From Lactobacillus sp. ESL0680 (GTDB taxonomy: Bacteria > Bacillota > Bacilli > Lactobacillales > Lactobacillaceae), in the NCBI RefSeq assembly GCF_029392855.1, contig NZ_CP113945.1:806001-870000 (forward strand): a DNA stretch of 64,000 nucleotides, read 5' to 3'. The notes below the pieces were generated by a model. The model saw nothing but the letters and a program-made list of their open reading frames with translations. It ran no database searches and was not told the origin of the DNA. Positions 22,106 through 38,629 of this stretch are shown here, piece by piece (position 1 is the stretch's first letter; every line of letters starts with the position of its first letter). A program made the position numbers and the translations under genes.

Positions 22106-24076
22106 TTATTGATGTTTATCAAACCATTCTTTAATATCATACATTCTGTGGATTCTAAGAGACGGCAAGCCATTACGTGACACGCCGTGGAATGATTGCG
22201 GGTAGCGAATCATGTCGGTCTCTGCCCCTGCCAGTTTAACGGCAGTAAAGAACTCCTCACTTTGTGAAATTGGACAACGCATATCCCATTCACCATGGAG
22301 TAATCTAATCGGCGTTGTTACGTTTTTGGCATAAGCTAACGGAGACATTCGCCAATATTTTTCAAGGGCTTCGTCGTCGCTGAATAAGTCTGCCTGCAGT
22401 TCTTGACGGTCGAACCAATAACCGATATCTGAGGTGCCATTCATGCTGATCCAATCACTAACACAGCGCTGGGCAACCGCTGCTTTAAACCGTTTGGTGT
22501 GCCCTACAGCCCAAGTTGTCATGAAGCCGCCGTAAGAACCACCAGCGATGTATTGATGGTTCTTATCTAATTCAGGGAAATGTTCCAAGGCATAATCTAG
22601 ACCAGCTAAGACGTCAGAAAAGTCGTTTTCGCCATAATGGCCGTCAACATCATTACAGAATTTTTGACCGTACGTGGTTGAGCCACGCGGGTTAACGTAA
22701 ACTATTCCGTAGCCCCAACTAGCTAAAACTTGAAATTCATGGAAAAAGGTTTCACCATAAGCTGCATGTGGACCACCGTGAACATACAACAATACTGGAG
22801 ACTGTTTAGGCTGGTTTGCTGCAGGCAAGTACCAGCCTTCCAGTTCTTGTGTTTTGTCTTTGGACAGATAAGTGAATTTTTGCGCCTTAAGATAACTATG
22901 AGTTTGTTCGAAGTCATGATTAGGATTATACAACTGGCTTGTGGTTTTAGTTTCAAGGTCAAAAAGTAATAATTCACTTGGCAATGCCTGTTTTGAAATT
23001 GTCAGAAGTAATTGCTGAGGACCAGCTGCACAAAAGTCAGTAATATCTTCAGCTTCATCACGAATTAATTGCACAGTATCCCGATTACCTAGGTACAATT
23101 GACTGTGACCGTGATGTAAAGCAGTAAAAGCATACTGTTCATTATCTAACCAAACTACACTGTTGCTGCATAAATTTTGGGTAAAGTCTGCAGTTAGAGC
23201 TGCTTCGTATCCTACATCAACGTCGGGCAACTGCTGAGTTAAATTAGTCAATTGTTTAGTTGCTAAAGAATACAGCCACAGATCGTTAACGGTTTGCCCT
23301 GGATAACTGTTATCATTGCCGACCAATGCTAAAGTTGTCCCGTCCGGTGAAAATGCCGCGGCAGAAAAACTCCCTTGAGCAACTTTACTAGTAATTAATT
23401 CGGTAGTACCCATCTTTTCGTTATAAAGATACACTGCCTTGGTGTAATCAATATCGGTATCAAGTTCAGGCTGGCGCCCCCTGATATAAGCAATAGTCCC
23501 TGCTTTGGCTGCTGCTAATTCAAAATCGTCCTTAGTTGTAAATAAAACTGTTGCTTCTTGCGTTAGTTTATCTACCTTAATCAGTGAAAATTCGGCATCA
23601 TTTTCAAACCAGCCATAACCATCTAATCGCCCATTTAGCTTGGTTACGTGTCTAACTTCTGGGAATTTTTCCGTTTTGAATTTAGGTTTTTCTTTAGTTT
23701 TCTTAGTCTTCACATACAAAGCTTGCGTGTCATCTGAAACAACTAATTCTTGAACGGAAACGTCATCACTATCAGTTAACAAGAACGGCTGTGCACTACC
23801 GCCATCAATTGGCATCCTGTAAAGTTGCGGCTTTTCGCTGTCTTCTTGATGAAGATAATAGAGAAAATCGCCCAATACTCGCGGACTACTATTTAGCCCT
23901 CCCTGACTCCAAACGCGATAGTTTTTATCTTGATCGAGACTAACCAAATTGGCCAAATAACTGTTGCTGTCTTTTTTAATGAAATTTTCAGTAAAAAATA
24001 TTTTATCATCGTAAAATCGTACTTGCGAAACTGATCTTAACTGATAAAGGTCTTCTGGTGCGATGTTTTTCGTCAT
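22106..24076 (-). CDS. S9 family serine peptidase (acylaminoacyl/prolyl oligopeptidase type)
   Basis: Cytoplasmic peptidase acting on short peptides. 656 residues: a WD40-like beta-propeller over about the first 400 residues and a C-terminal alpha/beta hydrolase. The nucleophile is in GGSYGGFMTTWAVGH, the acid in HGEWDMRCP and the histidine in PQSFHGVSRNG, all in the expected order. No signal peptide. It has its own transcription unit; an upstream Nudix gene ends in a terminator. In lactobacilli such enzymes contribute to peptide use, but the specificity cannot be read here. Confidence 0.92.
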   Translation of the reverse strand: MTKNIAPEDLYQLRSVSQVRFYDDKIFFTENFIKKDSNSYLANLVSLDQDKNYRVWSQGGLNSSPRVLGDFLYYLHQEDSEKPQLYRMPIDGGSAQPFLLTDSDDVSVQELVVSDDTQALYVKTKKTKEKPKFKTEKFPEVRHVTKLNGRLDGYGWFENDAEFSLIKVDKLTQEATVLFTTKDDFELAAAKAGTIAYIRGRQPELDTDIDYTKAVYLYNEKMGTTELITSKVAQGSFSAAAFSPDGTTLALVGNDNSYPGQTVNDLWLYSLATKQLTNLTQQLPDVDVGYEAALTADFTQNLCSNSVVWLDNEQYAFTALHHGHSQLYLGNRDTVQLIRDEAEDITDFCAAGPQQLLLTISKQALPSELLLFDLETKTTSQLYNPNHDFEQTHSYLKAQKFTYLSKDKTQELEGWYLPAANQPKQSPVLLYVHGGPHAAYGETFFHEFQVLASWGYGIVYVNPRGSTTYGQKFCNDVDGHYGENDFSDVLAGLDYALEHFPELDKNHQYIAGGSYGGFMTTWAVGHTKRFKAAVAQRCVSDWISMNGTSDIGYWFDRQELQADLFSDDEALEKYWRMSPLAYAKNVTTPIRLLHGEWDMRCPISQSEEFFTAVKLAGAETDMIRYPQSFHGVSRNGLPSLRIHRMYDIKEWFDKHQ

Positions 24077-24185
24077 AGATCTGTACTCCTTTGATTAATT
24101 ATATTAAATATTATTTCATTATTTATTAATTTAATTAATCTTACTATTCTGACCTTTTTTGTCAATCCTTTTTCTAACTAATAAA

Positions 24186-24224
24186 AATACCCGATTGACA
24201 GTAATTTCCCGCCAATCGAGTATT
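24186..24224 (-). terminator. Terminator after the Nudix gene
   Basis: AATACCCGATTG (24186-24197) pairs with CAATCGAGTATT (24213-24224) with one mismatch; on the - strand it is followed by TTTTTAT. Confidence 0.75.
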
Positions 24225-24231
24225 TGAAGTT

Positions 24232-24855
24232 TTATTCAAAAGTTGTCTGCCAGTTAGGATCATGATATGCATCAAAACATGTCTTGATTTCGGCTTCACT
24301 ATTGCGCTCAATTGATAACTCAGGCAAGTTTTCAAGGCTAAAATAGCGGCAGTCGCTTGTTTCAGTATTTTTAACAAACTCCCCGCCAATTTCACGACAC
24401 AAGAAGAACACATTAACGACATTAATTGCTCGTTCACCGCGAATTGTATGGTTATGGTCGCAAATTGTAATCACGCGTTCAGCTTCGACATCACGTCCTG
24501 ATTCCTCTTTGGCTTCCTTAATACAATTTTGGGTAACAGACATATTGGGTTCACACCAGCCGCCTGGCATTGACCAAGCGCCGTCGATAGTTTCTCTGAC
24601 CAGCAAGATTTGATCGTCCTTAAAAATTGCGGCCCGTGTCCCTAATTTAGGGGTTTGGTAGCCGTCATCACTACTAAACAATGATTTGACCTGCTTTAAT
24701 GGCAAGCCGGTTTTAGCAGCCATCATTTCGGTTGCGATAGCTCTAATTCGTTCATAGCGTTCCCGGTCGAATTTATCATGACCATATTCTAACCCATTTT
24801 GTGCTAAACTTTGTAATTCAATTGCCCAATTAGTAAACTGATCTTTTTTATCCAT
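24232..24855 (-). CDS. Nudix hydrolase with N-terminal helical domain
   Basis: Probable hydrolase of a nucleoside-diphosphate-linked compound. 207 residues: an N-terminal helical NUDIX_N-type region (about 1-60, with LQSLAQNGLEYGHDKFDRERYERIR) and a Nudix domain from about residue 68. The Nudix box is GWCEPNMSVTQNCIKEAKEESG. It keeps the metal-binding EAKEESG core, but the first conserved Glu is Met and the Arg is Lys; this variation is known in proteins with this N-terminal domain. It lies between the DegV and S9 genes, each with its own terminator. Substrate unknown. Confidence 0.88.
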   Translation of the reverse strand: MDKKDQFTNWAIELQSLAQNGLEYGHDKFDRERYERIRAIATEMMAAKTGLPLKQVKSLFSSDDGYQTPKLGTRAAIFKDDQILLVRETIDGAWSMPGGWCEPNMSVTQNCIKEAKEESGRDVEAERVITICDHNHTIRGERAINVVNVFFLCREIGGEFVKNTETSDCRYFSLENLPELSIERNSEAEIKTCFDAYHDPNWQTTFE

Positions 24856-24879
24856 AACTTTTTCCTTTGAATACTACAG

Positions 24880-24906
24880 AAAAAGCAGCTATAGCAGCTG
24901 CTTTTT
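24880..24906 (-). terminator. Terminator overlapping the DegV stop
   Basis: AAAAAGCAGCT (24880-24890) pairs with AGCTGCTTTTT (24896-24906), loop ATAGC. It ends the DegV gene, whose stop codon lies in the outer stem. Confidence 0.85.
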
Positions 24907-25783
24907 ATTTTGTTAAATCAATTTTGTCAATATCAATCATCCAGCCAATGGCAAGTGATTTTTCACCTAAGTGTGTCGCAATTCCGGGACTAAATTTGGT
25001 GATTGAAATTGTCTTGTCTGGAAATTCTTTTAGCAAGAATTCATTGGCTTCCTTAACTTGACTTTCATCGTTTGAATCAATGATAAATAACTTGATTTTA
25101 TCTTTGTATGGCAATTGACTAATTTTTTCAACCGTCAAATTTTCCATTTTGGTAAAAGCACGTTTCATTGACCGAATTTTGTCAAATGCAACAATGTCAC
25201 CGTCTTTGAAAGTTAACAGTGGCTTGATATTGAGCATTGAGCCGATAAATGCACCAGCGTTACTTAACCGACCGCCGCGACTTAGATTCTTAAGGTCATT
25301 AACAACAAAAACTTCATCAATTGTTGCTCTAATCTTATCTAAATGGTCAAGGATTGTTGTTAAATCTAAACCGTTTTTAATCATCTTAGCAGCAGCCAAT
25401 ACTAAATTGCCTTGCAAACGCACAGTCATCTTAGTGTCAACAGGATGAAGATTGTATGCTGGATGATTTTGAGCAATATTACATAAAGTCTGATAAAAAC
25501 CAGAAATACCACTAGAAAGTGTGATTGCAATAATTGCCTCGTATCCCTCATCATGCAGCTTGTCAAAAAGTGTAATCATGTCACCCATACTTGGCTGTGA
25601 GGTCTTAGGAAAATCTGCGCCCTCTCTCTGCAGCTCAAAAAGCTTGTCGGAAGTAATATCAATGCCCTCTAAGTATTCCTGATTACCAATAATAACTGGA
25701 ATTGGTACAACAATAATATTATTGTCTTCAGCTTCTTGTTTAGTTATAACGCTAGTACTATCGGTAACTAATGCAATTTTCAT
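24905..25783 (-). CDS. DegV family protein, second paralog
   Basis: 292-residue DegV/FakB-type fatty-acid-binding protein. MKIALVTDSTSVI at the N-terminus, FPKTSQPSMGD, TLSSGISGFYQT and the SRGGRLSNAGAFIGSMLNIKPLL stretch are family marks. It is clearly diverged from the paralog at 825-1685, which supports different fatty-acid ligands rather than recent duplication. Monocistronic, 73 bases from the MarR gene upstream. MarR-family regulators often control lipid genes in Bacillota, but the link here is only positional. Confidence 0.87.
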   Translation of the reverse strand: MKIALVTDSTSVITKQEAEDNNIIVVPIPVIIGNQEYLEGIDITSDKLFELQREGADFPKTSQPSMGDMITLFDKLHDEGYEAIIAITLSSGISGFYQTLCNIAQNHPAYNLHPVDTKMTVRLQGNLVLAAAKMIKNGLDLTTILDHLDKIRATIDEVFVVNDLKNLSRGGRLSNAGAFIGSMLNIKPLLTFKDGDIVAFDKIRSMKRAFTKMENLTVEKISQLPYKDKIKLFIIDSNDESQVKEANEFLLKEFPDKTISITKFSPGIATHLGEKSLAIGWMIDIDKIDLTK

Positions 25784-25856
25784 CTAATTAACCTTTCGCT
25801 TATTAATATGTGATACAGAGAAATTATAGCATAAAAATAGGCGGTCATTCTACTAC

Positions 25857-26270
25857 CTAGAGAGACTTTGCAGTTTCTAACTTAGTTAATAGCTGGTTAA
25901 TGATAGCATTCAACTGGCTGATTTCACCTTGTGATAGGTCTTCAAAGAGCATTTGTTCAATCTGCTTTAAAGTAGCCTTTAATTCATCTGCTTTACGAAC
26001 GCCAGCATCATTTAAAACAACTGACTTACTAGAATCACTCTCTGAACGAATGATTTTTACTAATGTTAACGTCTTTTTCTGCTGCAATTGCCTACTTAAA
26101 GTTGATAAAGAAATATTTAGCTTATTTGCTAAACTCCCCATTTTTAATGGCTGATTACCATTTTTATCAAAATATAGTAAAATCCTAGTTTGCGATAAGT
26201 TTAACCCACATGTACGACTGATTTCATTTTTTATTTGCGCGGCAATCGTGCTAAAAGATAAAATATCCAT
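25857..26270 (-). CDS. MarR family transcriptional regulator
   Basis: 137 residues with a winged helix-turn-helix typical of MarR: CGLNLSQTRILLYFDKNGNQPLKMGSLANKLNISLSTLSRQLQQ, then a wing with VKIIRSESDSSKSVVLNDAGVRKADEL and a C-terminal dimerisation helix. It is transcribed towards the DegV gene and could share a transcript with it. Palindromic TAACATTGTTA at 26351-26361 in its upstream region is a possible operator. Confidence 0.85.
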   Translation of the reverse strand: MDILSFSTIAAQIKNEISRTCGLNLSQTRILLYFDKNGNQPLKMGSLANKLNISLSTLSRQLQQKKTLTLVKIIRSESDSSKSVVLNDAGVRKADELKATLKQIEQMLFEDLSQGEISQLNAIINQLLTKLETAKSL

Positions 26271-26648
26271 TCAACTAACCCTTTTCCTCTGAATAACTAA
26301 AAGATAAAATTATTTTTCATACTATAATTTTTAACAATTAAAAAGCTAAATAACATTGTTAAATGAGGTTTTATCATATCAGATAGAGTGTGAAACAACA
26401 ATGGCTAGTATGCAAATAATTTTATTGTGAAACATTTTAGTATTAATTTTAACTTATAACTAATAAATACAAGTATCCATTAATATATATTACTAGTATA
26501 GCATCTTTTTGCAATGATTTGTTTAGTTAAAATTAATTTAATTAATATATTGTTAATATACGTTATTTTAAGAAAATTGCTTAAAGGACATCTTATACTT
26601 ATTACGAAATAATTGGTATAATAGAGTTCGTATTTTGAGGTGATATAT
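26271..26648. promoter_or_regulatory. Intergenic region between MarR gene and rqcH
   Basis: About 375 AT-rich bases between divergent genes. TTAACAAT (26331-26338) is repeated inverted at 26355-26362, and TAACATTGTTA (26351-26361) is itself a palindrome; both are candidate MarR operators. The rqcH promoter is TATAAT at 26617-26622 with TTATAC 18 bases upstream. No credible gene is seen; a 63-codon frame on the - strand overlaps the rqcH start and looks spurious. Confidence 0.4.
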
Positions 26649-28337
26649 ATGGCATTTGACGGCTTATTCATTCATAGTCTATTAAACAGTGTGACCCCTG
26701 CCCTTGTTGGCGGGCGCTTATCAAAGATTTACCAGCCTTTCAGTCAGGATTTAATTTTGACTTTTAGAAAAGAGCGTAAAAATCAGCAGTTGCTGATTTC
26801 GGCTAACGCACAATATCCACGATTTTATTTAACTAAGCAAGCGATCAGTAATCCGGATAAGGCACCCACTTTTGTAATGGTGCTGCGAAAGTATCTTGAA
26901 GGGTCAGTTTTGCAATCGATTAATCAAGTTGGTGTTGATCGCATTATCAATCTTTGCTTCAGTAATCGCAACGAACTTGGCGATCAAGTACAACTTATTC
27001 TGTCAGTTGAGTTAATGGGTCGCCACAGTAATGTGATTTTGTACGACCAGACAAGTGGCCATATTATTGATTTGTTAAAGCGCATTAATCCGGATGAAAA
27101 CCGGGCACGAATTTTACTGCCAAAGGCAAAATATGAACTGCCCCCACTTAATCCGGGTTTAAATGGCTTTGACCTAACAGAAAATGACTTTAAGCAGGAA
27201 ATAACTGGGTGCGAACCGGCTATTTTTGCTAAAAAGATTGGCGGCTTGGATAAAGATGACCGTAATGAATTGACTGGTTATTTGGAAGATGATTACACTT
27301 ATTCATCCTTTACCACTTTTATGCAGCAATTTGATAAATCTGGTGCCTTTATTTTAAAAACGCCAAACAACAAGCGCAAAATCTTCCCTTACCTTCCCTA
27401 CCACTTAGATTTGGTTCAGGAAAGTACAGATTCTGACTTGAATCATGCTCTAGATGAATTTTACCAATATCAAGCTAACCGTGATTGGGTTAAGCAAAAG
27501 GCAAGCCAAGTTGAGCGAATTGTCAAAAATGAACAAAAAAAGTTAAGCAAAAAAATTGTTAAGCTTAATAAGCAGCTCGACCAAGCAGAAAATTCCGAAG
27601 GGTATCGTATTCGGGGTGAAATTCTAAATGCGAATTTAGGTCAAGTTAAACCTGGAATGACAAAAATATCTTTACCTAATTATTATGACAATAACGAGCC
27701 GATTGAGATCAAACTTGATGCGGCTCTATCCCCAGCACGTAATGGTCAAAAATATTTTACTCGTTATAAAAAATTACGCGATTCAATTAAGCATGTTAAG
27801 CAGCAGATTGAAATCGCGCAAAATAACCTAACCTACTTTGATTCAATTCAAACGGCAATTGATAATGCGGAGCCGCAAGACATTGACCAAATTACTGATG
27901 AATTAATCAGTCAGGGTTATCTTCGCCGGCCGCAAAAGCAAAAGCGCCGTAAGAAAATTACCGAACATAATTTAAATAAGTTCAAACTTACTTCTGGCAA
28001 AACGGTTCTGGTTGGGAAAAATAATTATCAAAATGATTGGTTAACGCTAAAAAAGGCTAATAAAACTGATCTTTGGTTCCATGTCAAGAACATTCCTGGA
28101 TCACATGTTATCCTGCAGGATGATTCACCAACTGAGACGGATATTGCCGAAGCCGCTGAAATTGCCGCCTACTTTTCTAAGGCAAAAGATTCAGCACACG
28201 TGCAAGTTGATTATGTTCAAGATAAGCGGGTTAAGAAACCTAATGGTGCCAAACCTGGCTTTGTTATCTATACTGGTCAGAATTCTATTGAAGTTACACC
28301 AGAAAAAGACAGTGTTTTGAATAAAAGAATCGATTAA
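26649..28337 (+). CDS. rqcH: Rqc2 homolog RqcH (NFACT protein)
   Basis: Ribosome quality control factor that adds alanine tails to nascent chains on stalled 50S subunits; older annotation calls it fibronectin-binding protein. 562 residues: NFACT-N domain (AFDGLFIHSLLNSVTPALVGGRLSKIYQP, and RINPDENRARIL with the conserved D-R pair), a coiled coil (about 280-400) and the NFACT-R domain near residue 455 (KTVLVGKNNYQNDWLTLKKA, DLWFHVKNIPGSHVIL). ATG 26649 has GAGGTGA just upstream; GTG 26640 is less likely. It is one of few + strand genes in this half of the window. Confidence 0.95.
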   Translation: MAFDGLFIHSLLNSVTPALVGGRLSKIYQPFSQDLILTFRKERKNQQLLISANAQYPRFYLTKQAISNPDKAPTFVMVLRKYLEGSVLQSINQVGVDRIINLCFSNRNELGDQVQLILSVELMGRHSNVILYDQTSGHIIDLLKRINPDENRARILLPKAKYELPPLNPGLNGFDLTENDFKQEITGCEPAIFAKKIGGLDKDDRNELTGYLEDDYTYSSFTTFMQQFDKSGAFILKTPNNKRKIFPYLPYHLDLVQESTDSDLNHALDEFYQYQANRDWVKQKASQVERIVKNEQKKLSKKIVKLNKQLDQAENSEGYRIRGEILNANLGQVKPGMTKISLPNYYDNNEPIEIKLDAALSPARNGQKYFTRYKKLRDSIKHVKQQIEIAQNNLTYFDSIQTAIDNAEPQDIDQITDELISQGYLRRPQKQKRRKKITEHNLNKFKLTSGKTVLVGKNNYQNDWLTLKKANKTDLWFHVKNIPGSHVILQDDSPTETDIAEAAEIAAYFSKAKDSAHVQVDYVQDKRVKKPNGAKPGFVIYTGQNSIEVTPEKDSVLNKRID

Positions 28338-28338
28338 A

Positions 28339-28369
28339 AAAAGCGAGAATGCAATGCATTCTCGCTTTT
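28339..28369. terminator. Terminator between convergent rqcH and carB
   Basis: 14-bp perfect stem (28339-28352 with 28356-28369), three-base loop, flanked by A and T tracts; bidirectional. Confidence 0.9.
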
Positions 28370-28389
28370 GCGCCTTTTAATTCAATTTT

Positions 28390-31300
28390 TTAAATTGGCT
28401 GTGTGGTTAGAGATAGTGATTCTAAGACATGCAGAATTAATTCCGTAGTTTCAATACTGGAAAAGACAGGAATATGCGTGTTCAAAGCCTCGTCCCTAAT
28501 CTTAATTGCATCACCGCTTGCTGTATCAGAAAGATTAGTAATATTAATTACCATGACAATCTTGTGCTGGCTGATTTTTTCCAATAAATTATTTGGATCT
28601 GAATGAACCTTGCTCACCACACCAGTTGTAATTCCGGCTTCAGCGAAGGCATTGGCGGTTCCTTCAGTGGCAACAATTTTAAAGCCTAAGCGGTCAAATC
28701 GCTGTGCTAACTCTGTCACTTTTTTCTTGTCTTCATCACGAACAGAAATAAAGATTGTCCCAAAGCTTGGGATGTGTAAGCCGCTGGCTTCATAACCCTT
28801 GTAAAGAGCTTTGGCAAGTTCCGTGTCACGGCCCATTACCGAACCAGAAGATTTCATTTTCGAATCAAAAGTATTGCCACTATTGTAGTCAACATACGAA
28901 AAGACAGGCATTTTAACGTGAATAAAGTTATTTGAATGCCACAAACCCATTTTGCAGTCTAGGTCAGCTAAATCTTTGCCAGTTAATACTTCTGTGGCAC
29001 AAGCTGTAATATCCTTACCCAAGGATTGTGATAAGAACGCAACATTGTGCCCGGCATACGGCTTAATTTGCAATAGATAAATGCTTTTATCAACAATTAA
29101 AAAGTGCAATGTAAAGATGCCCCGCATCTTTAACCGTTTAATTAATTCGGATGCATATTCGATTAACAGCTTCTTGCCTTGCTTAGATAAGTTTTGGGGT
29201 TTAAAGACCGCAATTGAATCCGAAGCATGTGAGCCAGATTGTTCTAGGTGCTCAATAATTCCGGGAATAGAAACATCTTTACCATCAGAAATTGCCGTAA
29301 TCTCGTACTTGTTGCCTTCAATGAAATGCGACAAAGTTACTTTTGATAGTTGAGTTTCCGCGACATATTTGTCTAAAGCTGGCTGATCGTAAACAACGGC
29401 CGACTTTTGCTTAACACCTTGATTATTAAAGCCACCAATTAAAATCGGGAAATTATGTTCACTAACAAATTCTTCTGCTTCTTTTGCATCAGTAGTTGTT
29501 AACAGTGAATTTTGCTTGAGTGATTTGACTGGTGTTGCCGAAAGCTGCTTGATTTTATCAACGGGATTTTCACTATGATTGCCTAAGACGTTTAACCCAC
29601 GTTGAACCAGCTTCTCCCCCATGGCATTAATTTTTTTGCCAGAGAATTGAAGCAGAACATTCTTAATGTTTTCTTTGTGAGCAACCTGAACGATGTTCTC
29701 AACCGTGACCGGTTCAAAGTAGATGCGATCGGTGTACTTATAACTGGTAGCTACCGATTCATCATTATTGGAAATCAACACAGTAGCATAATTATTTTTA
29801 TGTAAAGTTTCTACCGCATGACTAACCATGTAGTCAAATTCACTGGTAACCGATACCTGTGCTGGCAGCATGCCGATAACTAATACCTTCTTATCAGCTA
29901 TTAGAGGCTGAACCTCATCTTGAACGCCAAAGGAACTGTAATATGCTTGAACTTTCGGCTGATAAACACCTGCTGACCCGTCAATCTGTAAGTAAGACGG
30001 CGTCAGGTGCAATTTTTTAAGATGTTTTTGCAAGGCATCAAGATTAATACCAGTTAAGGTGGCTATCAACTCATCACGAAAGCCGCGTCTTTTTGCTTCA
30101 ATTAGTAACTCATCACTTGGCTTAGTGTCATTTAACTTACGGCCGATTTCGGCAATATTCTGCAATTTTTGAAAATAAACGGGATGCAGCTGCACCAATT
30201 GCTGCAATTCTTGATAAGAAAAACCTTTGGCAATAGCTGCCAATAATCTAATCAGGTGCAGTTCATCAGGATGAAGTAGATCTTGTTTAATTTCTTCCTC
30301 GTCTTTGTCTTTTTCAGAAATGAATAGCTGTACAGCTGTATTGAGATTAACAGTTGAGGCTAGTCCTTTCAAAAATGCTGTTTCGAAATTACGGCCAATT
30401 CCGATAGCTTCACCGCCTGACTGCATCCTTTTGCCTAAAGAATAATGATTGGTTCCTAATTGTGTTAGTGACCAATACGGCATGCGGACAGCAACCTTAT
30501 CTTGGGTTGGCTCGATTGCCGCATTTAATCCTGACATTGGATCAGTAATTTCATTTAAGCGATAGCCAATTGCAATTTTACAAACAACGTAACCAATACT
30601 ATAAAGGTCAATTCGTTGCGACCAAATTGCACTCCTAGTTAAGCGCGGCTTAATTGTTAGAATCTTGACATCAAATTTTGTACCTTGATGCTTGACGGCA
30701 AAATGAATATTTAAAATGCCAACAATCTTTAAACTTGCCGCGATTTTCTGTGCGATTTGTCTAATCCGTTGAACTTGGTCGTTATTTAACGTTAATGCTG
30801 GCATGACCATTGCGGAATCACCAGCGTTAACTGCAACTGGTTCAATTGAATCCGCAAAGCTGGTAAACAAGACATTACCGTCATTGTCGCGAATAATGTT
30901 AACGATAACCTCTTCCCATGAAGATAAATCCTCAATTAAACGGTAATTATCACAGGAAAAGCCCTCACACTGCCGCTCTTTTTTGATATAAGTAACTAAG
31001 TCTTGGCACTTTTGAAAAATGATTTGCTTATTGGACAAGTAACGTTCTCTCTTAACCATTAAAATCGGAAAAGTAACTTTAGTATCCAATTCATGAGCTA
31101 AGTTATCACTAGAAAAGTCCGATAATTTCCAATTTTGATTAATTTCAAGACCGTTTTGCTTAAGAAAAGCAGTCATCTTCTGTTGGGAATTAATCATCAA
31201 CGTTTCTTTATTTAACGTGAGCAGCTTAATACCCATCTGCTGTAAAATACCGTCATTAACCAGGTCAAGAGTTACCGATAAGCCAGTTGTTGAACCGTAC

Positions 31301-31566
31301 GCAGGAATAATTGCATCTGGTTCTTCCATGCGAATAATTCGCTTGAGAAAGTCCAGGGTCATTGGTTCTAAATAAACAGTTACTCCTGGTCTTTTATCAG
31401 TTGAGATTGTAGCCGGATTGGGATTAACAAGAACCACATGGATGTCTTCTTCTAACAGTGCCCTGATGGCATCTGAAGTAAGTAAATCGGTCTCTGCCAC
31501 ACTTCCTACTAATGTCGGCCCTGACCCAATGATTAAAATTTTACCTAAATCATTTTCTAAAGGCAT
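28390..31566 (-). CDS. carB: CarB-like protein (carbamoyl-phosphate synthase large chain) with degenerate active sites
   Basis: Full-length (1058 residues) CarB fold: two tandem ATP-grasp halves and a C-terminal MGS-like regulatory domain from about residue 935. Compared with recalled CarB consensus, the catalytic positions are lost in both halves. The N-half glycine loop (TLGGTGGG) reads RYLSNK near 175-180; the IEVNPR metal motif is ILTIKPR (Thr304, Lys306), and the His of VHTGDS is Asn247. In the C-half, VRPSYVLGG is replaced by IGGFNNQG and VIEVNPRAS by LLQIKPYAG (Gln833, Lys835, Tyr837). The MGS domain (FISVRDEDKKKVTELA, FKIVATEGTA) is well kept. It is four bases after carA, with no frameshift. 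Probably a pseudo-enzyme; carbamoyl-phosphate synthesis by it is doubtful. Confidence 0.88.
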   Translation of the reverse strand: MPLENDLGKILIIGSGPTLVGSVAETDLLTSDAIRALLEEDIHVVLVNPNPATISTDKRPGVTVYLEPMTLDFLKRIIRMEEPDAIIPAYGSTTGLSVTLDLVNDGILQQMGIKLLTLNKETLMINSQQKMTAFLKQNGLEINQNWKLSDFSSDNLAHELDTKVTFPILMVKRERYLSNKQIIFQKCQDLVTYIKKERQCEGFSCDNYRLIEDLSSWEEVIVNIIRDNDGNVLFTSFADSIEPVAVNAGDSAMVMPALTLNNDQVQRIRQIAQKIAASLKIVGILNIHFAVKHQGTKFDVKILTIKPRLTRSAIWSQRIDLYSIGYVVCKIAIGYRLNEITDPMSGLNAAIEPTQDKVAVRMPYWSLTQLGTNHYSLGKRMQSGGEAIGIGRNFETAFLKGLASTVNLNTAVQLFISEKDKDEEEIKQDLLHPDELHLIRLLAAIAKGFSYQELQQLVQLHPVYFQKLQNIAEIGRKLNDTKPSDELLIEAKRRGFRDELIATLTGINLDALQKHLKKLHLTPSYLQIDGSAGVYQPKVQAYYSSFGVQDEVQPLIADKKVLVIGMLPAQVSVTSEFDYMVSHAVETLHKNNYATVLISNNDESVATSYKYTDRIYFEPVTVENIVQVAHKENIKNVLLQFSGKKINAMGEKLVQRGLNVLGNHSENPVDKIKQLSATPVKSLKQNSLLTTTDAKEAEEFVSEHNFPILIGGFNNQGVKQKSAVVYDQPALDKYVAETQLSKVTLSHFIEGNKYEITAISDGKDVSIPGIIEHLEQSGSHASDSIAVFKPQNLSKQGKKLLIEYASELIKRLKMRGIFTLHFLIVDKSIYLLQIKPYAGHNVAFLSQSLGKDITACATEVLTGKDLADLDCKMGLWHSNNFIHVKMPVFSYVDYNSGNTFDSKMKSSGSVMGRDTELAKALYKGYEASGLHIPSFGTIFISVRDEDKKKVTELAQRFDRLGFKIVATEGTANAFAEAGITTGVVSKVHSDPNNLLEKISQHKIVMVINITNLSDTASGDAIKIRDEALNTHIPVFSSIETTELILHVLESLSLTTQPI

Positions 31567-31570
31567 ACTT

Positions 31571-32626
31571 CTACCCCATCATCTTTACAAAATCGTCAAA
31601 AATAGATAGTGCATCAAGACTGCCAGGTGCACCTTCAGCGTTGAAAGCTGTGCCGATTATCTTTTTCTGTGGATTGCAAAATCCTGCTAATAAGTCACTG
31701 TGCAGGTCAAAATATTCCTGCTTCATTTCCATTTGCACACTATCAGCTAACACCAATTGTGAGATGTTCATTGCTGTCTGCCAAATGTGATTACAATTTT
31801 GTTCGATAACCGGATAATTAGTCCCATTAAATTCTTCAGGCAGGTCAACTAATTCAAAATTGAGATAATCGCTGAGTGCTAAAAAGCCCAAACCAATACC
31901 CCAAATTGGATATTTCCCATAAAAATGGGAGAATACTGGTTCTAAAGTAGCCTTGAGTTCAGCAGCTTTTCCAGGTCCACCTGAGATAATAATGCCATCC
32001 GGTCGCAAATTATCAATGTCTGTTACGGAAGCATCAAATGGTAGTACGGTCGCATTAATCTTTCTTAAAGATAATTCGCGCAGCATTGAGTGCTTGAGCC
32101 CCAAATCCAAAACGGCAACGGTTTTGCCAACATTTGGCGCCGCATAGGCGTTCTTAGTTGAAACTGCGGCCGACTTATTTTTGGGTAAAACAAGCGCCTT
32201 AATTTGGTCAAAAGCGTGTGCATCACTGGCGTCCATAATTGACGCCTTAATTGTCTTTTCTGTAATTAATAGGTGCACTAATGCCCGTGTATCAACTGCA
32301 TATAGTGCAGGGATGTTCTTTTCCTGCAAAAAAGAATTTAAATCTTGAAAGTTTTCGCTATCAGAGATGTTACGGGCAACATCGTTGGCAATAATGCCTT
32401 TAACAGTGGGGTTAATACTTTCGTAATCAATTGCATTAATCCCGTTGCCGCCAATCATTGGTGCTGTAAAGACAAGAATTTTGCCAGCATTAGTTGGATC
32501 GGTTAATGCCTCTTGATACCCAAAATTACCGGTCTGAATTGCTAATTCGCCAGTTGAAATGATTGAGGCACCAAAACTCTCACCTTCAAATGAACTGCCG
32601 TCTTCAAGAATTAAATATCGTTTCAT
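31571..32626 (-). CDS. carA: CarA-like protein (carbamoyl-phosphate synthase small chain) lacking the glutaminase nucleophile
   Basis: 351 residues, normal CarA length: N-terminal CarA domain (LEDGSSFEGESFGA, TGNFGYQEALTDP, AVDTRAL) and a C-terminal class I glutamine amidotransferase fold (ISGGPG at about 215). The nucleophile motif, usually GICLGHQ, is GIGLGFL (Gly at 245). The catalytic His of the HPEA motif is Asn329 (FNAEGAPG). Glutamine hydrolysis therefore looks impossible, while the fold and the partner gene are kept. It begins four bases after rluD and probably shares the fhs-lspA-rluD transcript. In many lactobacilli the lspA-rluD pair is followed by pyrR and pyrimidine genes, so the position is that of a pyrimidine operon. 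Confidence 0.88.
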   Translation of the reverse strand: MKRYLILEDGSSFEGESFGASIISTGELAIQTGNFGYQEALTDPTNAGKILVFTAPMIGGNGINAIDYESINPTVKGIIANDVARNISDSENFQDLNSFLQEKNIPALYAVDTRALVHLLITEKTIKASIMDASDAHAFDQIKALVLPKNKSAAVSTKNAYAAPNVGKTVAVLDLGLKHSMLRELSLRKINATVLPFDASVTDIDNLRPDGIIISGGPGKAAELKATLEPVFSHFYGKYPIWGIGLGFLALSDYLNFELVDLPEEFNGTNYPVIEQNCNHIWQTAMNISQLVLADSVQMEMKQEYFDLHSDLLAGFCNPQKKIIGTAFNAEGAPGSLDALSIFDDFVKMMG

Positions 32627-32630
32627 CTAA

Positions 32631-33539
32631 TCACTTAGTTTCTCTTAATTCGGATAGCCGCTCTAGAAAGATCTGAGGTGGGTCTACCTGAAACTCAAGC
32701 CATTTGCCACTAGATGGTTGTGAAAAGCCTAGAACTTGGGCATGTAAAAACTGACCATGACCTTCCAGAGTATGGTGTGGCCCGTATAGCGGATCGCCAG
32801 CAACGGGATGACCAATATAAGACAAATGGACACGAATTTGGTGCGTCCGACCGGTTTCTAGTTGACAGCGGATTAAACTGTAGTCCTTAAATTGTTCTAA
32901 AACTGTAAAGTGCGTGACAGCATCTTTGCCATTTTCAACAACGGCCATCTTCTTGCGGTTATAATGATTGCGTCCAATTGGCGCGTCAATCACACCGCTA
33001 TTCTCACTGAAGTTGCCATGAACAATGGCTAAATATTGACGCTTGTTGGTCTTGTGGGCTAATTGATCTTCTAAACTTTCGCGAGCATTGGCATTTTTGG
33101 CAATCATTAATAGGCCTGATGTATCCTTGTCAATGCGATGGACAATTCCCGGGCGAAAACCTTCAGGGCTATCTGCCAAATCTTTTGTATGATATAAAAG
33201 TGCATTAACTAAGGTATGGTCGGGATGTCCAGCTGCTGGATGCACCACCATTCCCTGCGGTTTATTAACGACAATAACATCTCGATCTTCGTAAACAATA
33301 TCTAGCGGAATATTTTCCGGAGTAACAGCCAAGGGTTTAAGTGCTGGAACAGTTACTGAAATTTGATCGCCATTCTGGACTTTATAGGACACTTTTTCAA
33401 GTTTGTTGTTAACCAATATTTGTTTATCTTGAATTAACTCTTTGATCCGTGTACGCGATAAGGTTGCAATTTGAGCTGCAATAAATTTGTCGAGCCGTCC
33501 TTGCTCACTCTTAACTTCAAGCTGATAGGTTTCAGTCAT
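32631..33539 (-). CDS. rluD: RluD-family 23S rRNA pseudouridine synthase
   Basis: Converts specific uridines in 23S rRNA to pseudouridine. 302 residues: N-terminal S4 RNA-binding domain (GRLDKFIAAQIATLSRTRIKELI) and a catalytic domain with Asp137 in GIVHRIDKDTSGLL, plus LETGRTHQIRVHLSYIGHPVAGDPLYG. It overlaps lspA by eight bases; lspA-rluD is a conserved pair. The exact target uridine is inferred only from the family. Confidence 0.93.
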   Translation of the reverse strand: MTETYQLEVKSEQGRLDKFIAAQIATLSRTRIKELIQDKQILVNNKLEKVSYKVQNGDQISVTVPALKPLAVTPENIPLDIVYEDRDVIVVNKPQGMVVHPAAGHPDHTLVNALLYHTKDLADSPEGFRPGIVHRIDKDTSGLLMIAKNANARESLEDQLAHKTNKRQYLAIVHGNFSENSGVIDAPIGRNHYNRKKMAVVENGKDAVTHFTVLEQFKDYSLIRCQLETGRTHQIRVHLSYIGHPVAGDPLYGPHHTLEGHGQFLHAQVLGFSQPSSGKWLEFQVDPPQIFLERLSELRETK

Positions 33540-33996
33540 TCACGTTACCACTTTCATCAAAAAACAATAGATAAATAAAAATCAAAATAATACCAACAGT
33601 AATTGCCGAATCAGCAATATTAAAAATATTGAAATGGATAAAATCCACTTGTAACATGTCAATGACATATTTGAGGTGAATCCGGTCAACTAAATTACCG
33701 ATAATTCCGCCTAAAACAAGGGCTAATCCACAATCAAACAAGCCATTTTTGTATTTGGGCTTGAATAAATAATAAAGACAAACACCAATTGCAAAGATGC
33801 TAATTAAATAAAACAGCCACATTTGTCCAGTGAGAATGTTCCAAGCAGCACCATTGTTTTGGACATAAGTAAATGATAAAACATGCGGGATAACTTGGTG
33901 AACCTCACCCAGGCTATAATTATTGCTAATAAAGGATTTAAGTCCCTGATCCGCAAAAACAATTACGAAAGAAATAATTAAATATAAAAATTGCAT
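33532..33996 (-). CDS. lspA: Lipoprotein signal peptidase (signal peptidase II)
   Basis: Membrane aspartyl protease that removes the signal peptide of prolipoproteins. 154 residues, four membrane helices. The catalytic aspartates are in GNLVDRIHLKYVIDM and NIFNIADSAITVG, and the YVQNNGAAW motif is present. It starts nine bases after fhs and overlaps rluD, so it is in the fhs-lspA-rluD-carA-carB run. Confidence 0.96.
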   Translation of the reverse strand: MQFLYLIISFVIVFADQGLKSFISNNYSLGEVHQVIPHVLSFTYVQNNGAAWNILTGQMWLFYLISIFAIGVCLYYLFKPKYKNGLFDCGLALVLGGIIGNLVDRIHLKYVIDMLQVDFIHFNIFNIADSAITVGIILIFIYLLFFDESGNVND

Positions 33997-34005
33997 AAAT
34001 AAATT

Positions 34006-35682
34006 TTAGAATAAACCGCTGATCTTACCATCGTTATCAACGTCAATATCAAGTGCTGCTGGATGCTTAGGCAAGCCTGGCATGTCTAAAACATGTCCGG
34101 TTGTAATTACGATAAAGCCAGCGCCATTTCTTAAACTTGCACCCTTAACATGTAAAGTAAAATCAGTTGGTGCTCCCAGCAATTTGGCGTTATCAGTGAA
34201 TGAATATTGGGTTTTAGCAATGATAACTGGTAATTTATCTTTTCCAATCTTCTCTAATTCATGAATATCTTGCTCGGCCTTTTCGCTGTATTCAACACTT
34301 GTTGCGTGATAAATCTTTTCGGCAACTTTGCTAATTTTAGTTTTGATGTCGTCATTTTCCTGATAAGTTGGCGTTAAGTCAGCCTTTCCGGAATTGGCCA
34401 AATCAACAACAGCTTGAGCAGCTTCAATACCACCCTTGGAACCTAATTCATGGTAATCAACAACCATGGCTTCAATTCCTTGTTCGTTAACCAATTGCTT
34501 TAATAGGTCAAGTTCTGCTGGAGTATCAGTCGCAAACCGATTAATTAATACGATTACAGGAACATTATAATTACGCATGTTATTCATGTGACGTTCTAAG
34601 TTCTTAAAACCGCTGCGTAAAGCAGACAGATTTTCGGTACCTAGATTGTCAGTTGAACCTTCAGCCTGATATTTTAATGCACGAACAGTTGCCACAACAA
34701 CACTGGCATCTGGCTTTTTATCAAGTTTAGTAGAGACAAAGTCCATAAACTTTTGACCGCCAAGGTCACTACCAAAGCCGGCTTCAGTTAAAGTATAGTC
34801 GCTGAGGTGTAAGGCAAGATTAGTTGCCATAATTGTGTTAGCCCCATGAGCGATATTGGCAAATGGTCCACCGTGAACTAATGCAGGTGTATGTTCAATT
34901 GTTTGCACCAAATTAGGCTTGAGTGCATTAGAAAGGAGAGCAGCAATTGCCCCTTGAAAACCAAGTTGTTTAACGTAAACGGGTTCATCATCTGTTGTAT
35001 AACCAACTAGCATTTCTCCAACCCGCTTTTTCAAGTCATTAATATCTGTAGCTAAGCACAAAATGGCCATTAGTTCATTGGCAACTGTAATCGCAAAACT
35101 TGATTCGTGCTCAATACCATTGAACTTAGATCCTTGGCCAACCGTGACTTTTCGTAAACTGCGGTCATTAACATCAATTCCGCGCTTCAAGACAATCTTA
35201 TCAGGATCAAGATGTAAGTCATTTCCTTGATAAATATAATTGTCAACAAGTGCTGCCAAAGTATCAATTGCGGCAGTTAACGCATGCATGTCGCCAGTGA
35301 AGTGCAAATTAATGTCTTCCATAGGAATGATCTGTGCTTGACCACCGCCAGTTGCACCACCCTTAAGACCGAAAACAGGTCCCATTGATGGTTCACGCAG
35401 AGCAATCATTGTTTTTTGGTGCAATTGGTTGTTAATGGCGTCGCCAAGACCAATCGTCATTGTTGATTTACCCTCGCCGGCTGGAGTTGGTGAAATTGAA
35501 GTCACCAAGATTAGTTTGCCTAGATGGCCGTTAGCTTGAATTCTCTTAATGGCTGGCCAGTTGATCTTAGCCTTATCATAACCGTAAGGTTCGAGGTCAG
35601 TTTTGGCTAAACCTGCCTTAGCTGCAATATCATTGATTGGTAAAGTTTGTGCTTCTTGAGCAATTTGAATATCTGTTTTCAA
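34006..35682 (-). CDS. fhs: Formate-tetrahydrofolate ligase
   Basis: ATP-dependent formation of 10-formyltetrahydrofolate from formate. 558 residues, full family length. P-loop TPAGEGKST at about 66-74; [40 protein letters not shown] and [11 protein letters not shown] are all typical. The first gene of the run leading to carAB. Its - strand promoter is probably TTATAAT around 35782-35788. Related one-carbon use in the window: trmFO. Confidence 0.97.
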
Positions 35683-35837
35683 TTAGAATTCTTCCTTCTA
35701 TTTTTAAAATTAAGTTGTCATATATCTGCTTGCCTTTTCATATTAGAATTTAGGTCCCACCTTTATTTAAAATCAACTGCTATTATAACAAATTTTAGGA
35801 ACATTTTCTTTATTGCAGGTTAATTTATAGATAATAA

Positions 35838-35865
35838 AAATAGCCAGCTTGATAGCTGGCTATTT
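35838..35865 (-). terminator. Terminator after the small membrane protein gene
   Basis: 12-bp stem (35838-35849 with 35854-35865), loop TGAT; on the - strand it is followed by a T-rich tract (TTTTAT). Confidence 0.85.
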
Positions 35866-35871
35866 GTTGAC

Positions 35872-36207
35872 TTAATTTTTAGCAATTCGCAATAAATAAT
35901 ATTTTTCTAAATCGGCAACAGTAATTACATAAATATGCAAATAGTGCCACTGCCAGAATAATTCAGGTTGCTTGTTGCATTTCACTTTAGCTCTAAATGG
36001 CAGTTTCAGGTACTTATTATTCCAATATGAAGTTAAAAAGGTATAAATGAGCAAGATTACAAAAATTATGCCAAGAATTATTGCCGGCCAATTTTTGACG
36101 TGGGTTCCTTCATAAGCCAAGATTAAGCTGAGGAACAGAACGATAAATACCCAGCTAAAATAAACTAACCCTACACGGCCAAGAATAATAAAGTGTTTTT
36201 TATTCAT
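35872..36207 (-). CDS. Small two-helix membrane protein, unknown function
   Basis: 111 residues with two strong hydrophobic segments (about 9-30 and 41-62) and a basic C-terminal half (RAKVKCNKQPELFWQWHYLHIYVITVADLEKYYLL). I do not recognise the family. It follows the metallophosphoesterase gene after 14 bases and is last in the ypsC-phosphoesterase unit, ending in a terminator. Confidence 0.65.
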   Translation of the reverse strand: MNKKHFIILGRVGLVYFSWVFIVLFLSLILAYEGTHVKNWPAIILGIIFVILLIYTFLTSYWNNKYLKLPFRAKVKCNKQPELFWQWHYLHIYVITVADLEKYYLLRIAKN

Positions 36208-36221
36208 TTAGCTACTCCTGA

Positions 36222-37451
36222 TTAATATTCAACTGTAGTTTCCAAATTGCTATGATCTGTTGTGTCATACAGTGTTCTCATGTAATTGCGGAATTTAGGA
36301 TGTTGTGCTTCAAGCGTTTGGTAAGCTACCGAATCATGAATTCGGTTAAGTTCTTCCTGACTAATATGATTATGACCAGTGAAATAATTATAATTCATAC
36401 TGAGAAATAACTCATTTACCTGCTTGATTAATGGTGGCTGGTTTTCGGCCAAAGGGTCAGGAATAGCAGAATTGCTGCTTAAATTACGCAACTGAATCTC
36501 TTTTAAATATTGGTGAAAATGGGTCAAAGTATAATTTTGTTGCTGAACCTTAGTCAAATAGGGCTTCATGGCAAAAGTCTCCCGTTGATACGTAACTTTT
36601 TCAGGATTTACTTGGACAACACCGTATGCTTGATCGTAAGAACAAAAGCTCGAAGTCACAACTTCAATTGTAGGTGTCTTACCAACCGGTCCAGCAATGT
36701 TTTGGGCGTGAATATGACCGGAAAAGGCCATTTTGATATCAAACTCTTTGCATATTTGTCTAAGCATTGGCGCATTATTTAAGACAAACCCGCGATTAAC
36801 TGCAGGGTTATGGACATAAAGCGTGTGATGCATAAAGAGCAGCGGCCGCAAGTGCTGTTTGCGCGCGTTGATTAATTGCTTCTCAAGCCAGACAAACTGG
36901 TCATCACTAATCTGCCCTGCAGTAATTGGTGAAGTGAAATTTTCTTGAGTGCCATAAATATTTGAATCCAGCATTATCAATAGATATTGCGGATTTAGCT
37001 GCACACTGTATGCCAGTGAATGTGGGTCTTGACTTAAACTGCAATCGTATGTCGATTTAAAGATCTGCCGCCAAGCTGCGGGCCCAACTTGCGGAGTAAG
37101 AATTTGTTTTTCACCTTTAAAGCTGCGGGCCCAACCATCATAAATATCATGATTACCAGGCAAAACTAATAGTTTAGTTTCGGTTAAACTACTAAAAATT
37201 TCTTGAAACTTCTGCGTGGAAATTAATTCCCCGTTAAAAGTAACATCACCAGTTACAATAATTGCGGCAGGCTTTTTTTCTTGGGCCATTTTACAAAAAG
37301 CACTCAAAGCTACTTCTTGATACACCAAGTCCTTACCTTGACTGGTGTTTTGCATGCGCACAAAAGCTGGACCATTGTCGTGAAGACTGTCCGCAATTAA
37401 ATGTGTATCTGTAATTATCCAAAATTCAGTGTTTAACTTATCTGTAATCAT
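36222..37451 (-). CDS. Metallophosphoesterase (calcineurin-like)
   Basis: 409 residues. The five metal-binding blocks of the calcineurin-like fold are visible: ITDTHLIADS, VTGDVTFNGE, LPGNHDIYD, MHHTLY and SGHIHAQNI. A family-specific C-terminal part of about 140 residues follows. No signal peptide is evident. It resembles a group often annotated as cyclic nucleotide phosphodiesterases, but the substrate cannot be deduced. Start overlaps the ypsC stop by four bases (coupled translation). Confidence 0.87.
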   Translation of the reverse strand: MITDKLNTEFWIITDTHLIADSLHDNGPAFVRMQNTSQGKDLVYQEVALSAFCKMAQEKKPAAIIVTGDVTFNGELISTQKFQEIFSSLTETKLLVLPGNHDIYDGWARSFKGEKQILTPQVGPAAWRQIFKSTYDCSLSQDPHSLAYSVQLNPQYLLIMLDSNIYGTQENFTSPITAGQISDDQFVWLEKQLINARKQHLRPLLFMHHTLYVHNPAVNRGFVLNNAPMLRQICKEFDIKMAFSGHIHAQNIAGPVGKTPTIEVVTSSFCSYDQAYGVVQVNPEKVTYQRETFAMKPYLTKVQQQNYTLTHFHQYLKEIQLRNLSSNSAIPDPLAENQPPLIKQVNELFLSMNYNYFTGHNHISQEELNRIHDSVAYQTLEAQHPKFRNYMRTLYDTTDHSNLETTVEY

Positions 37452-38572
37452 TTTTTATTTGCCCAGTATTGGTAGAAGTCTACGCGCAGGTTACCGTTAA
37501 ATAATTTACGCTTTTTGGTTGCGCGTGCACCAAAACATTTTTCAAAATCAGGATCACCAACCAAGTAATATTGACTAAAGCTATCATACTTATGAAAAAC
37601 TTCGCCCATTTGCTTATAGAGAGCTTCGGCAGATTCCTTATCCTTCAAACGTTTACCGTATGGCGGGTTAGCGATAATGATGCCGTTTTCTAAATCCGTC
37701 GCAAAGTCCTTAACTGCCACCTGCTTGAAATTAATATCTTGCAGCACCCCAGCATTGTGGGCATTTAACTTGGCAATTTCCAAAATTGATTGGTCAATAT
37801 CACTCGCCCAGATTGGCTGCTCTAATGGTCGAACCAGTGTTTTGGCTTCTGCTAAAGCTGTTTCGTGTAAGCTAGTATCAAACCAGTCAAAACCGTCAAA
37901 GGCAAACTTCCGCCAAGTACCTGGTGCAATATTTTTGGCAATTAATGCTGCTTCAATTGCCAGCGTTCCCGACCCTGTCATTGGGTCAATTAGTGGATGA
38001 GTGCCATCATAAGGGGTTAATTTAATTAAACTCGCCGCAAAGTTTTCTTTTAAAGGCGCGCCACCGTGTTCAATTCTGTAGCCACGCTTAAAGAGACTGG
38101 CGCCAGTTGTATCTAATGAAATCCGTGCCGTATCTTTATAAATGTGAATGTCGAGCGGATATTCATTACCACTTTCTGGCAAAAAGCCGCGCCGGTGATA
38201 CTGGTCAGACATTTTGTTAACAATTGCCTTTTTGACAATTGACTGAATACCTGGTTCAGAATGCAATTTTGATCTAACAGAACGGCCTTGAACCGGAAAC
38301 TTAGCATCAATCGGCAACAATTCAGCCCAGTCAATATCATAGACTTGGTTATAAAGCGTCTCAAAATCAGTCGCCTTAAACTCCTTCAATAGAATTTTAA
38401 CGCGGTCTGCGGTCCGTAGCCAGAGGTTAGTTTTAACGATGTCTGCTTGATTCCCCTTAAAGAAAACCCGACCATTTTCTGTTTTAGTTTCATAACCAAG
38501 TGCTTGCAATTCTTTGGCAACGACGCTTTCAAAGCCCGCGCCCATTGTTGTATAAAGTTGGTATTGTTTCAT
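37448..38572 (-). CDS. ypsC: THUMP-domain class I RNA methyltransferase (YpsC/RlmL-like)
   Basis: Probable N2-guanine or adenine methyltransferase of 23S rRNA. 374 residues: N-terminal ferredoxin-like and THUMP region (about 1-155) and a Rossmann methyltransferase with MTGSGTLAIEAALIA (SAM binding), ASDIDQSILEIAKLNAHNAG and the catalytic IIANPPYGKRL. Its place beside rnpB-gpsB-ypsA matches ypsC in Bacillus. The exact modified base is not established here. Confidence 0.9.
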   Translation of the reverse strand: MKQYQLYTTMGAGFESVVAKELQALGYETKTENGRVFFKGNQADIVKTNLWLRTADRVKILLKEFKATDFETLYNQVYDIDWAELLPIDAKFPVQGRSVRSKLHSEPGIQSIVKKAIVNKMSDQYHRRGFLPESGNEYPLDIHIYKDTARISLDTTGASLFKRGYRIEHGGAPLKENFAASLIKLTPYDGTHPLIDPMTGSGTLAIEAALIAKNIAPGTWRKFAFDGFDWFDTSLHETALAEAKTLVRPLEQPIWASDIDQSILEIAKLNAHNAGVLQDINFKQVAVKDFATDLENGIIIANPPYGKRLKDKESAEALYKQMGEVFHKYDSFSQYYLVGDPDFEKCFGARATKKRKLFNGNLRVDFYQYWANKK

Positions 38573-38599
38573 AAATAATCCTTTTCATTTCTTAAAAAA

Positions 38600-38629
38600 A
38601 GCGTTGAGCCCTTCGAAAAGCTCAACGCT
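38600..38629 (-). terminator. Terminator of rnpB
   Basis: AGCGTTGAGC (38600-38609) pairs with GCTCAACGCT (38620-38629); on the - strand it is followed by a run of seven T. Confidence 0.92.

Follow-up and report, generated by a model that had tools for sequence, protein, structure and literature searches.

Why would a bacterium keep a full-length carA-carB pair that seems unable to make carbamoyl phosphate? The question is raised by a window of 64,000 nucleotides (the whole stretch of DNA that was analysed) from Lactobacillus sp. ESL0680 (RefSeq assembly GCF_029392855.1, contig NZ_CP113945.1, positions 806,001 to 870,000), in which a first-pass annotation had described such a pair. The list of open reading frames (ORFs) bore out its coordinates, its intact frames, the 4-base gap between the two genes, and its place behind rluD. 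Judged by sequence comparison, the conclusion is supported that the pair lacks the glutaminase and both ATP-grasp chemistries of carbamoyl-phosphate synthetase (CPSase) in every ortholog examined, and it is probably kept as a sensor or regulator. The names CarA* and CarB* are used for copies classed as catalytically dead, and live CarA and CarB for the canonical enzyme. The pair and its diagnostic parts are as follows:

31571..32626, minus strand: CarA*, dead small subunit of 351 amino acids (aa); ORF with Pfam matches CPSase_sm_chain and GATase and a predicted full CarA fold
28390..31566, minus strand: CarB*, dead large subunit of 1058 aa; ORF with Pfam matches and a predicted full CarB fold including the MGS domain
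31892..31894, minus strand: codon of CarA* Gly245, at the position of the nucleophile Cys269
31640..31642, minus strand: codon of CarA* Asn329, at the position of the catalytic His353
30643..30660, minus strand: CarB* residues 303-308 (LTIKPR), the replaced first-half metal motif
29044..29070, minus strand: CarB* residues 833-841 (QIKPYAGHN), the second-half metal motif, replaced and frozen
28462..28719, minus strand: CarB* MGS-like allosteric domain, residues 950-1035 (Pfam match)

Replacement of the catalytic residues and predicted retention of the fold

Residues were numbered by reference to CarA and CarB of E. coli K-12 (NC_000913.3), and we take the functional roles of the compared positions to be those given in the CPSase literature. 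In CarA*, Gly245 aligned with Cys269, Leu249 with Gln273, and Asn329 with His353, and Glu331 (Glu355) was retained. In the first half of CarB*, Thr304 and Lys306 stood at the positions of Glu299 and Asn301, His288 at Gln285, Val171 at Arg169, and Gln129 at Arg129. Its second half had Gly711 at Arg715, Lys753 at Glu761, His821 at Gln829, Gln833 and Lys835 at Glu841 and Asn843, and Tyr837 at Arg845. The glycine-loop positions 175/176 and 721/722 of CarB* were Leu/Ser and Val/Lys, and the MGS site residues Ser941, Lys947, Thr967, Thr970, Lys986, and Asn1008 were retained. The E. coli alignment thus agreed with the first-pass annotation on the glycine and asparagine that replace the nucleophilic cysteine and catalytic histidine of CarA, and on the loss of the metal motifs and glycine loops from both halves of CarB. 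Catalytic residues at shifted positions, the outcome that would have contradicted it, were ruled out by the alignment and by superposition of AlphaFold models on E. coli CarA and CarB across nearly their full length; the phmmer alignment spanned residues 1-1029 of the window CarB*.

The same changes were fixed in orthologs. From 75 Lactobacillus genomes, 73 CarA* were extracted (that of L079 being truncated at a contig edge) and 63 CarB* were counted, the ten others being left out as partial sequence (nine short loci and the contig-edge locus L072). C269G, Q273L, and H353N were present in all 73 CarA*, and E841Q, N843K, R715G, and E761K in all 63 CarB*, joined by Q829H in 61 and Q285H in 62. 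The position of Glu299 was Ser, Thr, or Ala in 57/63, with Glu not among the listed letters; that of Asn301 was Lys or Arg in 59/63, with Asn retained in one; and Arg169 was replaced in nearly all. As the CarA changes are carried by 73 orthologs and the CarB changes by 63, chance was ruled out. The 18 extracted live pairs retained all these residues; Glu355 was Asp in 16 of them. Among the 106 dead CarA collected in total (73 from Lactobacillus and 33 others), Gly occupied the Cys269 position in every one and His353 was found in none (N 77, F 14, S 6, D 5, E 2, Q 1, Y 1), while all 43 canonical CarA had Cys and His. That the pair is catalytically dead, as first proposed, is therefore borne out at the level of sequence, the same losses recurring in every ortholog examined. 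An 'HAFDQ' motif in CarA* was considered as a mark of new function and dropped, as its letters are common to 7 to 11 of the 43 canonical CarA; it may be a lineage mark.

Against the NCBIfam models, CarA* scored 409 bits for NF009475 (cut-off 221) and 245 for TIGR01368 (cut-off 307.35), and CarB* scored 681 for NF003671 (cut-off 599) and 660 for TIGR01369 (cut-off 1027). The live chains of the same genome scored above all these cut-offs (478 and 472 bits for CarA; 1598 and 1542 for CarB). Because each dead chain passes one model and fails another, annotation would miss the dead state. AlphaFold2 models were built from alignments of 43 and 44 sequences, with one and two live sequences among the rows. 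CarA* (predicted local distance difference test, pLDDT, 86.9) matched best 1cs0_B of E. coli CarA in the PDB (TMq 0.90), and CarB* (pLDDT 86.9; predicted TM score, pTM, 0.88) matched 1c30_A of E. coli CarB (TMq 0.88, 1083 alignment columns). Each chain is thus predicted to keep the whole CarA or CarB fold. CarA* combines the domain content and fold of CarA with a broken Cys-His-Glu triad (Cys to Gly, His to Asn), and in CarB* the fold, oligomerisation, and MGS parts of CarB coexist with two halves that have each lost their metal ligands, phosphate-binding arginines, and glycine loops.

The ratio of nonsynonymous to synonymous substitution (dN/dS), a check suggested at the outset, was estimated by the Nei-Gojobori method (NG86) for 18 hand-picked pairs, with synonymous sites saturated in some; the medians were 0.039 for CarA* and 0.063 for CarB* (the ratio was defined for 17 of the 18 pairs in each case), within the range of RluD and LspA (0.075) and Fhs (0.044). 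For G039 versus G044 (L076/L077), two genomes without live carA, pyrB, and pyrR matches, the ratios were 0.050 and 0.070. All 73 CarA* were free of internal stops, and CarB* measured 1052-1064 aa in 62 of the 63 orthologs. CarA*B* is under strong purifying selection, and the view that intact frames argue against plain decay was strengthened by these ratios and by the fixation of the new residues.

Distribution and gene neighbourhood

The search for a second carAB that the first-pass annotation had advised found a live carA-carB after pyrR, pyrB, and pyrC at about 1.118-1.125 Mb of the same genome, with dead and live copies 33% identical in CarA and 30% in CarB. CarA* was present in 73 of the 75 Lactobacillus genomes, the two without a match being 59% and 76% complete; live CarA was found in 53, PyrR in 63, and PyrB in 54. 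Twenty of the 73 genomes with CarA* had no live CarA match (13 of these at least 95% complete), and 19 had neither a live CarA nor a PyrB match (13 at least 93% complete). A PyrR match was lacking too in ten of the 19, including six at least 96% complete (G022, G036, G039, G044, G045, and G074), in which CarB* was 1054-1058 aa long. Because the pair persists in genomes without those genes, the Lactobacillus CarA*B* appears INDEPENDENCE from the pathway, with a job independent of both pyrimidine synthesis and PyrR. As for pyrR itself, a second copy was split in two, with an in-frame TAG in one part, at G034:C1:886782-887311, and L. johnsonii loci L250 and L251 had an extra pyrR after the live operon.

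The genes that flank the pair in the window are the following:

32631..33539, minus strand: rluD, RluA/RluD-type pseudouridine synthase upstream of CarA*, above the RluA-subfamily cut-off and below the RluD equivalog cut-off
33532..33996, minus strand: lspA (signal peptidase II), overlapping rluD
26640..28337, plus strand: FbpA/RqcH-type protein, convergent to CarB*; best NCBIfam matches EfbA and RqcH, each below its cut-off

Four bases separated CarB* from CarA* and four CarA* from rluD, all three on the minus strand. Dead CarA had rluD as its immediate neighbour at 62 of the 64 long Lactobacillus loci; at L053 a 619-aa ORF lay between, and L079 ended at a contig edge. The Rfam search of window 20001-40000 (L006), which holds carA*B*, returned no PyrR site; it placed a class B RNase P RNA at 38642-38999 on the minus strand (290.8 bits). 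Scans for signals ahead of the genes of the window gave 19 promoter sites versus 23.8 expected from shuffles, and 10 terminators versus 6.4.

The family search covered 397 Lactobacillaceae genomes, with one or two genomes per genus read outside Lactobacillus. CarA* matches above 320 bits outside Lactobacillus came from genera g28 and g40 only. Dead CarA as such was carried by 33 of 40 genera sampled (13/18, Lactobacillus included, and 20/22 further ones, the latter with one genome each), and the idea of a single-genus oddity was rejected; live CarA only was found in the sampled genomes of g12, g13, g26, g30, g31, g32, and g34. Upstream of dead CarA, rluD was found in 31 of the 33 genera (within the 1.5-kb flank, L167 had pyrR only and L169 neither), and pyrR in 27, directly adjoining it in 24 and separated from it by a permease in three (L119, L129, and L135). 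The pyrR gene was missing upstream in Lactobacillus, L118, L133, L134, L150, and L169. The consensus of 37 PyrR linked to dead CarA retained the phosphoribosyl pyrophosphate (PRPP) motif, and an Rfam PyrR-binding site preceded pyrR-permease-carA*B* in L129 and L119. The permease belongs to the NCS2 family and is nearest to uracil permease, below the cut-off of that model.

Full pyr operons, in which pyrB and pyrC accompany a live carAB, occupied the same place in L121-L125 and L127, the gene order there in other genera being lspA-rluD-pyrR-permease-pyrB-pyrC-carAB-pyr(D)FE; the FbpA/RqcH-type gene closed the operon in L121, L122, L123, and L125 as well. In a scan of named records, among the best 80 of 565 confirmed places, the live operon was at that place in Loigolactobacillus, Latilactobacillus, Lacticaseibacillus, Liquorilactobacillus, and Enterococcus pallens; the dead type was carried by Lactiplantibacillus, Secundilactobacillus, Levilactobacillus, Paucilactobacillus, Limosilactobacillus, Pediococcus, Furfurilactobacillus, Lentilactobacillus, Apilactobacillus, Weissella, and Periweissella, with no pyrR in the Limosilactobacillus and Paucilactobacillus loci. 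A DNA pattern of the short type (described below) had matches in 28 of the 395 genomes of the order searched, every one of them Lactobacillaceae; since it misses Lactobacillus too, long-type dead pairs may also occur in other families.

As a working pyr operon fills the place in other genera, the dead pair has the look of a pyr operon stripped of its other genes. In the simplest history, whose order is deduced, an ancestral pyr operon shed its other biosynthetic genes and carAB was kept dead, often with pyrR, with live operons elsewhere. Trees were made by a quick method; the first needed three changes, and without the long rows L148, L157, and L095 a single dead clade gave a p-AU of 0.53, so that one origin of dead CarA is possible. 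Two named loci were observed beside this pattern. L249 (Lacticaseibacillus songhuajiangensis) had a dead CarA (Gly/Glu/Gln/Glu at four key positions) and a 950-aa CarB at the rluD-pyrR place, where other named Lacticaseibacillus members among the best 80 of 565 keep the live operon. In L245 (Loigolactobacillus rennini), CarA kept Cys269 with Leu for His353 and Asn for Glu355, and in CarB, Ala replaced E299 and E841, and Lys replaced N301, N843, and E761; it is possibly a separate, younger case resembling the Lactobacillus type.

Two main types of dead pair were distinguished. The long type (Lactobacillus, g28, g40, and relatives) has a full CarB with the MGS domain; 40 sites were invariant (97%) inside each group yet differed between 65 CarB* and 25 live CarB, 19 of them in ATP-grasp II, and CarB* was far less acidic (-12.7 versus -47.2 for live CarB). 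The short type, mostly PyrR-linked, comprised 61 sequences of 813-884 aa with an eroded second half; all 61 had Gly241 and His243, and all had Lys or Arg at Glu299. Each main type thus kept a different pocket, with a basic residue at a former metal ligand. L132 and L137 (genera g36 and g9) encode short CarB that are very divergent (about 26% identity to live CarB), have no MGS match, and keep Glu299. In the mildest case, G084 (L129), CarB carried E299A and E841A and shared 56% identity with live CarB, and CarA had C269G and H353D.

A possible role as sensor and its alternatives

We put at roughly 0.58 the probability that CarA*B* is a non-catalytic CarAB complex retained as a metabolite sensor or regulator. 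In favour are the lost catalytic residues, the predicted whole fold, the strong purifying selection, the place held by pyr operons in other genera, and the pyrR ahead of the pair in most genera sampled. Such a complex would bind small ligands in the former pockets without metal, lysine occupying the metal-ligand places, and in the Lactobacillus type a ligand such as uridine monophosphate (UMP), inosine monophosphate (IMP), or a PRPP-like compound may bind the conserved MGS site. The ligand state would alter the shape of the complex and hence the activity of a partner; both ligand sensing and signalling are what we infer for CarA*B*. The ancestral partner would most likely have been PyrR (PyrR2 in L. 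plantarum). Because pyrR was lost locally in Lactobacillus and the pair persists in genomes without a PyrR match, the pair would there have been rewired to act through another partner.

Several observations weigh against a sensor of this kind. Co-location with pyrR is expected of a mere operon remnant too. No Rfam PyrR site was found at L128, L126, L136, and L132, which says little because the live operon L005 likewise fell below the gathering score. The PyrR link cannot hold as such in Lactobacillus, since pyrR was absent from the window locus and all 64 long Lactobacillus loci and 12 of the 75 genomes had no PyrR match. The mean conservation of the MGS domain, 0.77 in CarB* versus 0.70 in live CarB with all other domains less conserved than in live CarB, speaks for a sensor, but the comparison sets 65 dead against 25 live sequences from partly different genera. 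The claim of the first-pass annotation that the regulatory domain is kept held for the Lactobacillus type and failed for the short dead clade, in which MGS, the best argument for nucleotide sensing, was lost in 61/61. Damage was also seen: one of the 63 Lactobacillus CarB* (L038) was about 90 residues short, CarB* was in three ORFs in L227 (Limosilactobacillus equigenerosi), and the CarA match of G137 had an in-frame TAA near a contig edge. The dead pair can thus be lost, as L227 indicates. To regard it on these three cases as a pseudogene pair on its way out is scarcely credible; plain decay was rejected for Lactobacillus by the intact frames, the dN/dS values like those of housekeeping neighbours, and the fixed substitutions. 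Catalysis of something else, such as ATP hydrolysis or another ligation, might explain why the second-half pocket residues are frozen rather than drifting; it is very unlikely, given metal ligands changed to Gln and Lys and the loss of phosphate-binding arginines and glycine loops. We know of no ATP-grasp enzyme that works with all of these so replaced.

A narrower sensor is also conceivable: in the PyrR-linked short type, the dead pair would have retained the half of the synthetase that handles bicarbonate and, on binding bicarbonate, would signal PyrR2 to permit or restrict expression of the pyr genes. The first half of CarB is, we assume, the bicarbonate-handling half in CPSase, and His243 presumably has a part in this role; it is this half, with Gly241 and His243, that the 61 short CarB* kept while the second half and MGS eroded. 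L. plantarum PyrR2 is cited as an inorganic-carbon regulator, and the Lactiplantibacillus-like G321 has two PyrR matches, at 884 and 1657 kb, of which the second adjoins dead CarA at L128, ending 34 bases ahead of it. However, pyrR2 (lp_1782) was equated with the PyrR of the locus by elimination and not by sequence, L132 and L137 outside the 61 keep Glu at 299, and the Lactobacillus type, with its looser first-half pocket, is left unexplained; we regard a bicarbonate sensor as unlikely, if well worth considering. Much the same doubt attaches to a wider scheme, in which the dead CPSase would read bicarbonate and nucleotides for PyrR in many Lactobacillaceae and, in Lactobacillus, would have been uncoupled and rewired via the new second ATP-grasp pocket; if true, it would answer how PyrR2 perceives inorganic carbon. 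Two further proposals are less probable still, and about equally so. Dead subunits could join live CarA or CarB as regulatory or decoy subunits, as the shared fold, the live CarA in 53/75 Lactobacillus genomes, and the well-conserved MGS and N-terminal CarA domains might suggest; the 20 genomes with CarA* and no live CarA match speak against it. A Lactobacillus-specific job tied to the lspA-rluD transcript, for example RNA or ribosome binding, would fit the near-constant rluD neighbour, the persistence of the pair without pyr genes, and the lower acidity of CarB*, but rluD neighbours full pyr operons too, and the Pfam scan gave no known RNA-binding domain.

No account of dead CarAB and no expression data were found in the open-licence papers searched. 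It is unusual for a family of much-used food, gut, and vaginal bacteria to retain, in a dead state, a whole enzyme of two subunits and about 1400 residues. Since NCBIfam goes on labelling the chains carA and carB, species without carbamoyl-phosphate synthesis may be credited with it in metabolic models; the 13 Lactobacillus genomes at least 93% complete that have CarA* but no live CarA or PyrB match are cases in point. The pair also offers a concrete candidate for CO2/bicarbonate sensing in lactobacilli.

Comparison with known systems

CarA*B* shares with E. coli CarAB (PDB 1JDB, 1C30, and 1BXR) its two subunits, domain order, fold, and MGS ligand residues. It differs in lacking the Cys-His pair, the metal ligands and glycine loops of both halves, and any pyrB or pyrC next to it. 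Human CPS1 has the same fold as CarB*. This ammonia-dependent CPSase is an active enzyme that retains its two ATP sites and has no glutaminase cysteine any more; in CarA*B* both ATP sites are lost.

A pyrR2 deletion in L. plantarum reportedly requires high CO2. L. plantarum PyrR2 is said to control the pyr operon in response to inorganic carbon, citing Arsene-Ploetze 2006 (PMC3582564), and a related inorganic-carbon title stands in the reference list of PMC5712122. The locus tags are pyrR2 = lp_1782 and pyrR1 = lp_2704 (PMC7911632). The live operon is written pyrR1-B-C-Aa1-Ab1-D-F-E in PMC6044075, and the numbering Aa1-Ab1 suggests that an Aa2/Ab2 pair had been noticed earlier; the passages cited do not call such a pair dead. 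Lactobacillus differs from this system in having no pyrR at the locus, and the passages cited name PyrR2 alone; in the Lactiplantibacillus loci (L177-L179, L192, and L128), PyrR stands directly before dead CarA.

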